NCBI RefSeq assembly: GCF_013839445.1
Contig: NZ_JACDIT010000001.1
Span: forward strand, 1,343,935-1,407,934
Length of the DNA stretch: 64,000 nucleotides
Source: Chthonobacter albigriseus
GTDB lineage: Bacteria > Pseudomonadota > Alphaproteobacteria > Rhizobiales > Pleomorphomonadaceae
Reading direction: 5' to 3'
Under the pieces are notes generated by a model, which searched no databases, was not told the DNA's origin, and saw nothing but the letters and a program-made list of their open reading frames with translations. Positions 30,470-35,179 of this stretch are shown in pieces. How positions within the stretch are numbered: position 1 is the first letter of the stretch; each line of letters opens with the position of its first letter. The position numbers and the translations under genes are program-made.

Positions 30470-33400
30470 TCACTTCTTCTTGTTCTGCTCCATGTTCGCC
30501 TTCAGGGCGAGCAAGGCGGCGAACGGCGAATCGGGATCGACCGGCTTCTCCGGCCGGCGCGGACGTTCGTCGCGCTGGGGACGGCGATCGTCGCGGCGCT
30601 CCGGGCGCGGCCCCCGGTCGTCGCGGCGTGGGCCGCCGTGACCTTGACCCTGGCGTTCGCCGCCCGGCCGGTCACCGCGCGGACCACCGCCCTGGCGGCC
30701 TTCGCCCTGCGGGCGCGGCGCGCCCTGGCCCTGGCCCGATCGGTTGTCCCGCTGGCCTCGCTGGTCGGATCGGCCATGCTCGGGGCGCCGACCACGGTCG
30801 AACCGTCCCGGACGCCAGACGTCGATCTCGCGCTCCTCGGTCGCAACCTCGGCACTCGCCGGAGCGGCAACCGCGGCTTCGCCTTCGGCGACGGGCTCCG
30901 GTTCGGCCGGAGATTCGGCGCTGTCCGCGTCCACGACCTCCACTTCGGCGGGCGGCTCGGTGACCTCCACTTCGGCGGGGGAGTCCGACGGGATCTCCAC
31001 CGGAGCCTCCGGGGCATCGGCGACGACAGGCTCCCCAGCGGCCTCGACCGCAGCGGCGACCGGCGCCTCCACGTCGGTGCTCGGTGCATCGGCGGTCGGT
31101 GCCTCGGCTTCGGCAACGACAGTATCCACTTCCGGCGCCGCAAGGGCGGCGTCGGCGGGCGCCGCAGCAGCCGGCTTGAGCGGAACCCGGATCTTCCGCT
31201 TCTCCACGCGATAGCCGAGCGCCTTCAGGATCGAGGCGAAGTCCTCGCCGGAGCAGCCGAGCAGCGACGTCATCGACACGGTGACGGTGAAGCCACCGCC
31301 CTGCGGGATCGCGCCGTCCGGATGCTGCGCCCCGTCGCCGGTCGGCTTCCAGGCGATCAGCGGGCGGATGATGTCGGCGAGCCGCTCCAGGATGTCCAGG
31401 CGGACCGCCCGCTCGCCGGCGACGCGGAAGCCGACGAGACGATAGAGCGTCTTGTCGAAGGCCGGATCGACCTTGATCGAGGTGCGGCCGGAGGAGGAGA
31501 GCTGCGGCAGTTCGACGAGGCCGGGCATGTCGAGAGTGCCATGCTTCAGCGCCCACAGCAGAGCTACGAGGCTGGCCGGCGCCGGCTTCAGGAGCGCCGG
31601 CACGTAGATGTGGTAGGCGCCGAAGCGGACGCCATACTTGCGCATCACAGCCCTCTGCGCCTGGTCGAGCGCCTTGACGTCCTCGGCAACCTCCGCCCGC
31701 TCAAGCGTCCCCAGCGCCTCGACCAGCCGGAAGGCCACCCCGCGGGCGATGCCCTCCAGGTCGGCGGCGGTCTTCAGGTCGAGCAGCGGCTTCAAAAGGG
31801 TGGCGATATGCGCGCCGATCCACAGATCCAGCCGGCCCTGGACCTTGTCGCGGGCAGCGCCGGTCAGCTGTTCGTCGGCCAGCAGCATCACGCGGGGCGT
31901 CAGCGGATCGTCGCCGGCGACGAGCTTGGCCACCGGCTGCCCCAGCCAGCGCATCGCGCCGTCGGAGGACAGCACGATCTCCTCGTTGCCGGCCTTGGTG
32001 ATCCGTTCGGCGCGTTTGTCGAACTCGCCGGCCAGCGACTTGGCGGCGGCGGTCCGCACGGCTTTTCCGTCCGGGCCTTCGGCACTGGCCGACTGGTCTG
32101 GCACGAAGCGGAAGCCGTGGAGCTCGCCGACGTGCTGCCCCTCGACGAGCACGGCGCCGGTCTCTGTGATTTCGGCTTCGAGCATGGCGTTCTCTCTCAG
32201 GCGTTTCATCAGGACGGAAGTACGACGGTCGACGAAGCGCTGCGTCAACCGTTCATGAAGAGCATCGGACAAACGGTCCTCTATATCGCGCGCGCGCTCC
32301 TGCCAATGGACAGGATCGAAAAGCCAGTTCGGACGGTTGGCGACATAGGTCCAGGTTCGGATGTCCGCGAGACGGTTGGAGAGGGCGTCGATGTCCCCGT
32401 CCGTACCGTCGCAGTTGGCGACCTGTCTTGCAAACCAATCGTCCGGAATGACCCCGCGGGCGGTCAGGAACCGGTACAGCGAGACAACGAGATCGCCATG
32501 GTGGGACGGCGAGATCTTGCGGAAGTCCGGAACCATGCAAGTGTCCCAGAGCAGCGACACCCGCTCGTGACGATCCGCCGCGTCCTGCACGGCCGGATCG
32601 CGGAGCGCGTATTCGAGCGCCCGCACGTCGTCCGATGGCAGCGCGCGGGACAGCCCGTCGAGCCCGGGCGGACGCTCCAGCGAACGGCGGAGCGTGTCGA
32701 CCGACGAGAAGTCGAGCGCGGTGTTGCGCCACTGGAACGTCAGCACCGGATCGAAGTCGTGGCTCTCGATCGCCTGCACCACGTCCTCGTCGAACGGCTG
32801 CACCTGGCCGGTCACGCCGAAGGTGCCGTCGTTGAGATGGCGGCCCGCGCGGCCGGCGATCTGTCCGAGTTCGGACGGGTTGAGGTTGCGGTACTGGAAG
32901 CCGTCGAACTTGCGCGCCTGGGCGAAGGCCACGTGGTCGACGTCGAGGTTGAGCCCCATGCCGATCGCATCGGTCGCGACCAGGAACTCCACGTCGCCGT
33001 TCTGGAAAAGCGCCACTTGCGCGTTCCGCGTCCGCGGGCTGAGGGCGCCCATCACCACCGCGGCGCCGCCGCGCTGGCGGCGGATCAGCTCGGCGATCGC
33101 GTAGACCTCGTCGGCGGAAAAGGCGACGACAGCCGAGCGGCGGGGCAGCCGGGTGATCTTTTTGGAGCCGGTGTAGACGAGCTGGCTGAGCCGCGGCCGG
33201 CTGGTGACGCTGACGCCCGGCAGGAGTTTCTCGATCAGCGGCCGCGCGGTGGCCGATCCGAGCAGCAGCGTCTCGGCGCGGCCGCGCACGTTGAGGATGC
33301 GGTCGGTGAACACATGGCCGCGTTCTAGATCCCCGGCGAGCTGCACCTCGTCGATGGCGACGAAGGAGACGATCAGGTCGCGCGGCATCGCCTCGACGGT

Positions 33401-33718
33401 GGAGACCCAGTAGCGCGCGCCGGGCGGGACGATCTTCTCTTCGCCGGTGACCAGCGCGACCTGGTTGACCCCGGCCCGGGCGCAGATGCGGGTGTAGACC
33501 TCGCGGGCCAGCAGACGCAGAGGCAGGCCGATCGCACCGCTGTCGTGGCCGAGCAACCGCTCGATCGCCAGGTGCGTCTTGCCGGTGTTCGTTGGCCCGA
33601 GGACCGCCGTCACGTTGCGAGAGCGGACCGACACCGGCGGCAGGAAGGAAGCTTCATTCATCAAGTTCGGCCGGCGCTTGGGAAACGTCGTCTCGAGATC
33701 GCGTAGGGCATCCGGCAT
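30470..33718 (-). CDS. SUV3-like DExH RNA helicase with disordered RG-rich tail
   Basis: A 1,082-residue superfamily 2 helicase resembling mitochondrial SUV3. Motif I is GPTNTGKTH near residue 41, II is DEVQ near 124, III is GSATARP near 153, V is ATDAIGMGLNLDVDH near 248 and VI is GQIAGRAGRH near 285. About 500 residues of accessory domains follow. From residue 870 the tail is first acidic and Ala/Pro/Glu-rich, then Arg/Gly/Gln-rich with RG and GG repeats, ending FAALLALKANMEQNKKK. An ATG at 33661 is an alternative start nearer to the motifs. In mitochondria SUV3 pairs with a ribonuclease for RNA decay; that role here is inferred. Probable operon with the S4 protein. Confidence 0.9.
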   Translation of the reverse strand: MPDALRDLETTFPKRRPNLMNEASFLPPVSVRSRNVTAVLGPTNTGKTHLAIERLLGHDSGAIGLPLRLLAREVYTRICARAGVNQVALVTGEEKIVPPGARYWVSTVEAMPRDLIVSFVAIDEVQLAGDLERGHVFTDRILNVRGRAETLLLGSATARPLIEKLLPGVSVTSRPRLSQLVYTGSKKITRLPRRSAVVAFSADEVYAIAELIRRQRGGAAVVMGALSPRTRNAQVALFQNGDVEFLVATDAIGMGLNLDVDHVAFAQARKFDGFQYRNLNPSELGQIAGRAGRHLNDGTFGVTGQVQPFDEDVVQAIESHDFDPVLTFQWRNTALDFSSVDTLRRSLERPPGLDGLSRALPSDDVRALEYALRDPAVQDAADRHERVSLLWDTCMVPDFRKISPSHHGDLVVSLYRFLTARGVIPDDWFARQVANCDGTDGDIDALSNRLADIRTWTYVANRPNWLFDPVHWQERARDIEDRLSDALHERLTQRFVDRRTSVLMKRLRENAMLEAEITETGAVLVEGQHVGELHGFRFVPDQSASAEGPDGKAVRTAAAKSLAGEFDKRAERITKAGNEEIVLSSDGAMRWLGQPVAKLVAGDDPLTPRVMLLADEQLTGAARDKVQGRLDLWIGAHIATLLKPLLDLKTAADLEGIARGVAFRLVEALGTLERAEVAEDVKALDQAQRAVMRKYGVRFGAYHIYVPALLKPAPASLVALLWALKHGTLDMPGLVELPQLSSSGRTSIKVDPAFDKTLYRLVGFRVAGERAVRLDILERLADIIRPLIAWKPTGDGAQHPDGAIPQGGGFTVTVSMTSLLGCSGEDFASILKALGYRVEKRKIRVPLKPAAAAPADAALAAPEVDTVVAEAEAPTADAPSTDVEAPVAAAVEAAGEPVVADAPEAPVEIPSDSPAEVEVTEPPAEVEVVDADSAESPAEPEPVAEGEAAVAAPASAEVATEEREIDVWRPGRFDRGRRPEHGRSDQRGQRDNRSGQGQGAPRPQGEGRQGGGPRGDRPGGERQGQGHGGPRRDDRGPRPERRDDRRPQRDERPRRPEKPVDPDSPFAALLALKANMEQNKKK

Positions 33719-34278
33719 CGCAACGGGTGCGCTTCCATCCGCGCCCCGTCTCTAGCACGCCCGGCAGGCCCGCGCTCCCCTTTTCTGCCGCCGCAACGGC
33801 CGCTGCCGCGCGGCAGACCGGCACATAGGAATCAAACGGGAACGAAACAAGGTCGAATCGGTGATGACAAGAGATTCTGGATTCGTTCTCACAAAATATG
33901 GTGCCGTTCGGAGTCTCGAGCGCTCGATCTTGAATCTCTAGACTCGGAGCCCGGAGTCATCGACTCCACACCCGAATCGCTGTCAAGCGTTATTCTGAGG
34001 CGCGACTCGGTTGCGCGTAAAGGTTAACGCACCATGACTTGCCCGGGCCAAGTAGAAGCGGGTGGCGTTAACGAATTCGACGAAGCGGGAACGAAGAACG
34101 GACGAATCGCTGATGGGGCGATGTTCTGATTTTGATCACGGCCACATGTGGTAGGCGACGCGGGGCACCCACCAGCTCTGGGCCGGTGAATCGATCATGC
34201 AGGGATCGGGATGAGGATCGCGTTAAGCCCTTCGTCCCGAATTGGGTCGGGACGATCGCGGGGATGGGGGCCGAACGG
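33719..34278. other. 560-bp noncoding region crowded with GANTC sites
   Basis: No gene is supported. Thirteen GANTC sites lie between 33829 and 34192, eleven of them in the first 180 bp. GC is clearly lower than the neighbours. GTTAACG occurs twice, at 34023 and 34067, 44 bp apart, and GAAGCGGG twice, at 34055 and 34082. GGAGTC-ATC-GACTCC at 33953-33967 is a small dyad. GANTC is the CcrM methylation site of Alphaproteobacteria. It forms the long upstream region of the helicase gene. I find no convincing DnaA box. Confidence 0.7.
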
Positions 34279-34317
34279 CAAAAGGCCGCCCGGAGCCTGA
34301 AGCTCCGGACGGCCTTT
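34279..34317 (-). terminator. Terminator after DUF3108 gene
   Basis: On the minus strand a 16-pair stem with one mismatch (AAAGGCCGTCCGGAGC against GCTCCGGGCGGCCTTT) closes a five-base loop and ends in TTTT, 20 bp past the stop. Confidence 0.85.
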
Positions 34318-34336
34318 CAGGGGACGCGGTTGGCGA

Positions 34337-35179
34337 TCAGTTGGCGGCGGCCTCGGCGATGTCGGATCCATCGTCGAACTGCCGCGCCTTGACCACCAGC
34401 ATGCCCTTCATGGTCCGCACGGAGATCTTGTAGGGGAGCATCAGGCGCCCGTCGCCGGCCGGCACGAACCAGGCCTCAAGGTCCTTGTTGTCCCGCATGA
34501 ACTTGGTCGATTCCCGCCCCTCGCGGTGACCTGCCACCGGCACCCAGCGCGCGCCGCAGACGATCGCATCGCCCTGGTAGCCCGGCACCTTGATGGTCTC
34601 GGTCGACTTGTAGGTGAGGCGGATGTCGTAGCGGGTCCAGCCGTCGAAGATCGGCAGCGTCCGGTCGCACACATCGGCGCCCGTGCCTCCCTCGGTCGGC
34701 ACCAGCGCCGCGGAGAGCGGGTCGATGACATTGCGCTTCGACGCGGCAGTGATCGGCACCCGGTCGTCGGCCTGCGAGAGTTCAGGAACCGCCCGCAGCT
34801 TGCCGATACGGCCGCCGGAAAGGCCCATGGTCACCTGCGTGACCTTGTCGCCGCGGCTCATCAGCTCGTAGCTTGCGGGCGAAAGATTGCTGCCGATCCG
34901 CCCCTTCACCGTCGCGATGCTCTCCTCCGAGGAGATGATGCGCGCAAGGCCCGAGGTGGAGATATGGAGCTTGGCCGCATAGGCCCCGCGGTCGATCCGG
35001 ACCGCCAGCGAGCCCTTGGCGATGCCGAATCCCATGAAGGAGACGTCATAGACCGCCTTGGTCTCTGCGGCCGGGGCTGCGGCCTCGGCGAAGGAGATGG
35101 CGGGCAGCGCCGCCATCAGCGATGTGGCGACCAGGGGCCGGACCGCCTTGGAGAGAACACGGAAACCGAAAACGGACAC
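34337..35179 (-). CDS. DUF3108 domain exported protein
   Basis: A 280-residue protein of the DUF3108 family, common in Proteobacteria and of unknown function. A signal peptide covers about residues 12-35 (VRPLVATSLMAALPAISFAEA). The domain begins AVYDVSFMGFGIAKGSLAVRI and includes a cysteine pair (DVCDRTLPIFDGWTRYDI and IVCGARW) that could form a disulfide. It ends PYKISVRTMKGMLVVKARQF. The GTG start at 35179 has GGAGG seven bases upstream, which decides against the longer frame to 35365. Divergent from rpmB. Confidence 0.85.
   Translation of the reverse strand: MSVFGFRVLSKAVRPLVATSLMAALPAISFAEAAAPAAETKAVYDVSFMGFGIAKGSLAVRIDRGAYAAKLHISTSGLARIISSEESIATVKGRIGSNLSPASYELMSRGDKVTQVTMGLSGGRIGKLRAVPELSQADDRVPITAASKRNVIDPLSAALVPTEGGTGADVCDRTLPIFDGWTRYDIRLTYKSTETIKVPGYQGDAIVCGARWVPVAGHREGRESTKFMRDNKDLEAWFVPAGDGRLMLPYKISVRTMKGMLVVKARQFDDGSDIAEAAAN

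Follow-up and report, generated by a model that had tools for sequence, protein, structure and literature searches.

The window analysed here, by which we mean the whole stretch of 64,000 nucleotides at G000:C1:1343935-1407934 of a 4.64-Mb genome, contains an intergenic gap of 618 bp between the gene for a SUV3-like helicase and its upstream neighbour, a DUF3108 gene, both of which are read in the same direction (Table 1). A hairpin with a run of T residues is the terminator of the DUF3108 gene and sets this gene apart from the helicase, whose translation may in fact begin with the ATG at 33661 instead of at the end of the frame at 33718. Among named records the closest helicases belong to Pleomorphomonas, with 79-81% identity over about the first 400 residues. 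On the 3' side of the helicase, and in the same direction, there follow genes that we take, by recognition, to encode an S4-like protein, a ferredoxin and a CarD-like protein, and no tRNA was found in the 64-kb window. The sequence-only reading that preceded this work had described a noncoding region of 560 bp; noncoding it is, but the gap is longer than that and has the terminator at its end. What that reading missed were the NrdR-type words, the LexA-type words and the two-copy module into which they are arranged.

Table 1. Features of the gap before the SUV3-like helicase and of its neighbouring genes (positions in the window)
Feature	Position	Strand	Basis or remark
Gap before SUV3-like helicase, holding the two-copy control region	33719..34336	-	From helicase to DUF3108 stop at 34337
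SUV3-like helicase, downstream of the element	30470..33718	-	PF22527 DEXQc_Suv3 (E 2.4e-25), PF00271
DUF3108 gene, upstream neighbour	34337..35158	-	PF11306 (E 2.8e-15)
Hairpin and T run, terminator of DUF3108 gene	34281..34317	-	Sequence
Module copy 2, nearest the helicase	33829..33936	-	Profile E 2.0e-17
NrdR-type box A, copy 2, GATTCAAGATCGAGCG	33921..33936	-	5/6 core letters
NrdR-type box B, copy 2, GGCACCATATTTTGTG, 31 bp from box A	33890..33905	-	6/6 core letters
LexA-type operator 1, copy 2, GAACGAATCCAGAAT	33874..33888	-	Conserved words
Invariant GATTCG, middle of copy 2; with the preceding C, GcrA-type YGAKTCG	33854..33859	-	61/61 loci
LexA-type operator 2, copy 2, GTTCCCGTTTGATTC	33829..33843	-	Second half ATTC, not GTTC
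Five extra GANTC between module copies (33941, 33954, 33962, 33974, 34004)	33941..34008	.	Sequence count
TTGACA, candidate -35, followed by GANTC sites	33981..33986	-	Also in several family members
Module copy 1, weaker, 249 bp upstream of copy 2	34078..34154	-	Profile E 1.7e-10
NrdR-type box, copy 1, CTACCACATGTGGCCG	34139..34154	-	6/6 core letters
LexA-type operator 1, copy 1, GATCAAAATCAGAAC	34123..34137	-	Conserved words
GATTCG of copy 1	34103..34108	-	Conserved words
LexA-type operator 2, copy 1, GTTCCCGCTTCGTCG	34078..34092	-	Second half degenerate

The module is a composite of ~115 bp (about 75-115 bp) made of NrdR-type boxes, LexA-type operators and GANTC sites, and is usually present twice. 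In copy 2 of the window the two operators are mutually inverted, lie 45 bp apart from start to start and each have one mismatch to the LexA-type word, and in copy 1 no convincing partner box was found 31 bp upstream of the NrdR-type box. No clear -10 element was identified in the gap. The genome encodes CcrM, GcrA, LexA and NrdR, the identity of CcrM having been assigned from Pfam domains and from an NCBIfam model matched below its curated cut-off (630.8 vs 830 bits); a RecA peptide word gave no match in the sampled 1.26 Mb of the genome.

All thirteen GANTC starts that had been listed for the gap proved correct on recount and the eleven said to fall within 180 bp are present, at 33829-34008, as are the two GTTAACG words at 34023 and 34067, 44 bp apart. 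The accompanying estimate of one GANTC per ~340 bp holds as a prediction from base composition, but the window is in fact sparser, with 77 sites in total or one per 831 bp. The gap had also been called unlike the others, and indeed two sites are the most that any other 180 bp of the window contain. Eleven sites in 33829-34008 were reached by none of 5000 dinucleotide-preserving shuffles (mean 2.5, maximum 8), nor did any such shuffle reach the thirteen of 33719-34286 (mean 3.7). In a sample of 1,257,924 bp, window included, corresponding to 27% of the 4.64 Mb of the genome, the runner-up 180-bp stretches have four sites each and are found in six places, one of which adjoins hemE.

We compared 99 upstream rows of 580 bp each, drawn from the top 80 of 582 named records and from the genomes of the family, the helicase being found in 19 of the 20 family genomes. 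The order to which these belong is presumably Hyphomicrobiales, to judge by the named relatives. Over the 99 rows GANTC occurs 967 times against a shuffled expectation of 296.0 (3.27-fold), the second-ranking palindromic pentamer reaching 1.72-fold, and the gap before the SUV3-like helicase is enriched in 82 rows, meaning that the observed count was reached by at most two of 200 shuffles. The 17 rows with no significant enrichment include L005, L015 and L033 (Mesorhizobium, a Rhizobiaceae MAG and Pseudovibrio), in which SUV3 is preceded by neither the GANTC cluster nor the dyad described below and which constitute a natural contrast set. Because the cluster is conserved in most relatives and no sampled stretch is comparable to it, neither of the two outcomes named beforehand as fatal to its significance, namely a lack of enrichment in the orthologous gap of close relatives or a similar density in many unrelated gaps, was encountered.

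The GANTC sites hold fixed relative positions across relatives, and these positions belong to a wider grammar that we count from the first GAAC on the helicase strand (position 0). Its core is the dyad GAACN7GAAY, N30, GTTCN7GTTC, with GAAC at 0, GAAY at 11, GTTC at 45 and GTTC or ATTC at 56 (60, 57, 60 and 57 of 61 loci, respectively). The 99 rows include some genomes twice, and the 61 loci are those left at ≤90% identity from 93 rows with the dyad; as the loci were anchored on the GAAC and GTTC words, the counts of these words are partly built in. The box letters and the GANTC at +29 are independent of the anchoring. Left out of the dyad counts are the three rows of the contrast set and L046, L072 and L074, in which both operators are present one base closer together (44 bp). 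Upstream of the dyad stands the NrdR-type core CnAnATnTnG at -45 (box A) and -14 (box B), scored at 5/6 or better in 51 and 55 of the 61 loci, respectively, with no other offset exceeding 5 loci. GANTC recurs at -49 and +11 (49/61 each), +21 (38/61), +40 (31/61) and +51 (28/61), and at +55 in 17 of the 93 rows, that of the window among them, while the extended word YGAKTCG at +28, which contains the GANTC at +29, is present in all 61 non-redundant dyad loci. A second and weaker copy is found upstream in 55 of the 61 loci at a threshold of at least 10 of 14 anchor letters, which can sometimes be reached by chance; the GANTC at +29 of the upstream copy, which does not depend on the anchors, is present in 75 of the 87 rows with such a copy. 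The two tandem copies are mostly 220-290 bp apart. The Sinorhizobium meliloti locus L011 has copy 2 and, at this threshold, no copy 1, and Ensifer L053 has both.

The words of the dyad resemble LexA operators. The alphaproteobacterial LexA motif is GTTC-N7-GTTC (PMC3323433), and it can overlap GANTC (PMC7987155). Operator 2 has this form: among the 61 loci, which were anchored on these words, GTTC makes up the first half in 60 and the second half in 46, the latter count rising to 57 if RTTC is allowed. Operator 1 is usually GAACN7GAAT, with GAAT as its second half in 83 of 93 rows vs GAAC in five. The genome's own lexA promoter has an inverted GAACN7GAAC and GTTCN7GTAC, 26 bp apart. The module is like this promoter in word, spacing and inverted order; unlike the lexA promoter, it places its operators 45 bp apart, and unlike the SOS operators it has one half-site that is usually GAAT and is itself usually doubled. 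Neither is the SUV3-like helicase among the alphaproteobacterial SOS genes named in the available text of the literature. An inverted operator pair at 45 bp, with at least 7 of 8 letters in each operator, occurs once in 1.26 Mb, at this locus, and inverted pairs at all spacings of 15-69 bp number 12 in the same sequence.

The boxes can be compared with what is known of NrdR, whose structure shows conserved C-G at 9/18 and 40/49 of the bound DNA, hence 9 bp within a box and 31 bp between boxes (PMC9110341). Most NrdR sites have spacers of 15-16 bp, corresponding to 31-32 bp between box centres, and binding by E. coli NrdR falls 530-1000-fold when only one box is intact (PMC12051234). In the module the C at -45 and -14 and the G at -36 and -5, 9 bp away, are each conserved in at least 90% of the 93 rows, and the spacing between the two boxes follows the structure in copy 2 of the window and is exactly 31 bp in 86 of the 91 copy-2 rows with box B; in copy 1 the partner box is found in 16 of 79 rows only. 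The B12-dependent ribonucleotide reductase of this genome is preceded by two box pairs with spacings of 32 and 31 bp, each of which combines a 6/6 box with a 5/6 box. The module therefore shares with NrdR-regulated reductase promoters the paired boxes, the CnAnATnTnG core, the C and G 9 bp apart and the 31 bp between boxes, and with the reductase promoter of this genome the box words themselves, whereas it differs from them in having a helicase as its target and in that the boxes abut LexA-type operators. A box pair at 31 bp with at least 11 of 12 letters occurs twice in 1.26 Mb, once at this locus and once within a frame recognisable as rsmG. At 5/6 per box, however, 31-bp pairs are not commoner than pairs at other distances, so that the box pair alone proves little and it is its conservation that counts. 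The 700 bp that precede the B12-dependent reductase gene also contain five GANTC sites.

The invariant YGAKTCG is the published activating motif of GcrA (PMC7987155), and the helicase loci are like GcrA/CcrM promoters in having GANTC together with this methylatable extended word. In Brucella GANTC is abundant in the ChIP-seq peaks of GcrA, among which are those of lexA and further repair genes; of the repair genes tested, only ogt and mutL changed upon GcrA depletion (PMC6813329). Caulobacter promoters of this class are sparser, more than one site within 50 bp being reported for only 11 of 96 GANTC-bearing cell-cycle starts; unlike them, 54 of the 61 helicase loci have 6-18 GANTC in the 580 bp upstream. 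The sequence-only reading had proposed a promoter timed by methylation, a replication or segregation site, or a methylated locus of another kind, with GcrA and CtrA as the readers of such regions. The part of this proposal that stands is a methylation-linked regulatory region of the helicase, with CcrM and GcrA encoded in the genome and the cluster conserved. CtrA drops out, the full TTAA-N7-TTAA being present in only two of 61 loci (700 bp).

It may be asked whether methylation by CcrM and its recognition by GcrA are the whole function of the promoter, all other words being incidental. The excess of GANTC over every other palindromic pentamer, the invariance of YGAKTCG and the extra sites between the two copies argue for such a reading. 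Against it, the operator GTTCN7RTTC persists in 28 of the 33 loci in which no GANTC lies at +51, and several genomes have lost the cluster and retained the dyad and box B. Pseudochrobactrum (L030) and the record L019 keep the dyad and GATTCG and have lost most other GANTC. The reduced, AT-rich genomes L245-L248 of the order (GC 31-33%) show no deviation in the anchor words, GATTCG or box B, but this GATTCG is the sole GANTC of their element. We therefore regard a promoter driven by methylation only as distinctly unlikely.

The reach of the element was examined with a sequence profile made from copy 2 of the 61 loci. It matches all 20 family genomes, with a second copy in 19 of them and nothing else better than E 0.007. 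Searches in the order and in the class used stricter filters at the cost of weak matches. They found the element in 156 of 199 genomes and 79 of 99 genera of the order (E up to 0.1), where the matches at E 0.05-0.1 (G043, G080, G107, G140 and G167) may be due to chance, and in 21 of 190 genomes of the class (E up to 0.01), 18 of which fall outside the order; the 43 order and 169 class genomes with no match to the profile were counted irrespective of the presence of SUV3. The gene beside the element is SUV3 in 66 of the 69 regions inspected (39/40, 8/9 and 19/20), which comprise the better matches and hand-picked weaker ones and are not a random sample, and the one exception among the 40 is a contig end. 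In the second exception, a single-contig genome of 1.7 Mb (L237), 14 bp separate the end of the dyad from the start codon not of SUV3 but of a LolA_like gene (PF17131). The third is an additional, more degenerate module away from SUV3 in an 8.8-Mb genome (L242, G186:C100), in the gap before an open frame of 153 codons, and the same genome carries the element at SUV3 as well.

The 17 loci outside the order have one to three GANTC in the element. In 15 of them box B is present, at offsets of -12 to -15 relative to the GAAC dyad and 13 times with 6/6 letters, but none of the 17 shows a partner box at a distance of 30-33 bp upstream of box B, a further difference from NrdR-regulated reductase promoters that makes the assignment to NrdR outside the order a weak one. 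The dyad and the NrdR-type box B are thus conserved further out than the GANTC cluster, and the simplest history would start from an ancestral element of box B, the GAAC/GTTC dyad and a single GATTCG, with the dense cluster and the box pair as later additions within Hyphomicrobiales. The lone box B at an almost fixed place, together with the fact that the words at 0, 11, 45 and 56 make up one symmetric 60-bp dyad and that no other strong place with this arrangement exists in the 20 family genomes, could also point to one undescribed gene-specific DNA-binding complex, the likeness to NrdR and LexA sites being partly coincidental. The words, however, match known operators and recur at the lexA and ribonucleotide reductase promoters of this very genome, and the exact spacing of the boxes in copy 2 fits NrdR, on account of which we consider a single complex rather doubtful.

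A site serving the chromosome, be it as origin, in segregation or in titration, could lie before the helicase by mere happenstance. Origins and repABC loci can be GANTC-rich (PMC3973325, PMC11514494), the GTTAAC words would suit such a site, and one exact DnaA-type word, TGTGGATAA, lies close to the element of L014; L039 and L074 have no such word. Position speaks against it. In this genome hemE is on another contig, within a few kb of rsmG-parA, at a place (G000:C17:205332) that has a small GANTC group of its own (four sites in about 65 bp) and is probably the chromosomal origin region, and in four relatives hemE is about 355-700 kb away from the element. The element is thus not at the hemE/parA region, and the chromosomal origin was ruled out by position. 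Moreover, the orientation of the element to the helicase is constant in the aligned rows, and in L237 it adjoins the start of another gene. The earlier suggestion of an origin or segregation site was accordingly abandoned, and we consider a chromosome site of any of these kinds very improbable. GC skew in the partly sampled contigs has opposite signs at the two ends of contig 1 and did not place origin or terminus.

Long conserved noncoding DNA could also be the mark of a structured RNA, either a gene of its own or a leader. RNAalifold found 0 pairs in the 61 copy 2 sequences, and Rfam gave no match at gathering score, nor did any hit in the gap fall under E 0.9; this reading is hardly credible. 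A piece of plasmid was likewise rejected, the gap being without match in 72,556 plasmid records (distant mode).

Taking the anatomy of the module and its conservation together, we think it rather probable that the cluster is part of an operator and promoter region of the helicase gene that integrates dNTP level, DNA damage and replication-dependent methylation. From the motifs we infer binding by the three regulators, and with it promoter activity and a direction for each effect. NrdR on the box pair would repress at high dATP, LexA on the inverted operators would repress until DNA is damaged, and GcrA would activate from CcrM-methylated sites, including the invariant YGAKTCG. Passage of the fork would leave the GANTC sites hemimethylated, and the two tandem copies may serve looping or redundancy. 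The helicase would then be up when forks are active, when dNTPs are low or when DNA is damaged. Because letters of GANTC overlap the LexA-type operators (at +11, +51 and +55), LexA may be in competition with the methylation state of these sites.

On this reading of the switch, the helicase would be wanted during replication, dNTP shortage and DNA damage, and the close packing of sites like those of a dNTP sensor, a damage repressor and a methylation reader suggests that it is tied to the replication of the chromosome and its accidents. We know of no other promoter with the three-input combination of NrdR, LexA and CcrM/GcrA, and to our knowledge the combination, the density of sites, the depth of conservation and the target gene are new. 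In the literature searched, which was full-text and included few subscription journals, we found no description of the element or of such regulation of a SUV3-like gene, nor any functional description of a bacterial SUV3-like helicase, and "helicase" is absent as a word from the main text of PMC11514494, PMC11711589, PMC3973325 and PMC7987155. Mitochondrial SUV3 acts together with PNPase on RNA as well as on R-loops, is able to unwind RNA-DNA hybrids and has been connected, again with PNPase, to the homeostasis and maintenance of mtDNA (PMC10362022). By analogy with these reports on SUV3 and PNPase, the most likely candidate for the role of the helicase would be the removal of RNA-DNA hybrids (R-loops) in S phase, which is a guess. 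Tentatively, and with less than even confidence, it is possible that the alphaproteobacterial relative of mitochondrial SUV3 serves as a helicase for replication stress, controlled by one NrdR/LexA/CcrM-GcrA switch, and that hybrid removal in mitochondria is an inherited bacterial task. Should the switch work as proposed, the open question of the ancestral role of SUV3 could be approached by a simple reporter and an R-loop experiment, and the region would offer a conserved and site-dense test case for LexA occupancy versus CcrM methylation on overlapping letters.

The record L019 is labelled Bacillus subtilis SK6B4; its helicase is 70% identical to that of the window and its element very like that of Pseudochrobactrum L030, so the record is probably mislabelled or contaminated. 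Three tandem copies of the module stand before the helicase at G122:C1:4254413-4254980 and at L249.
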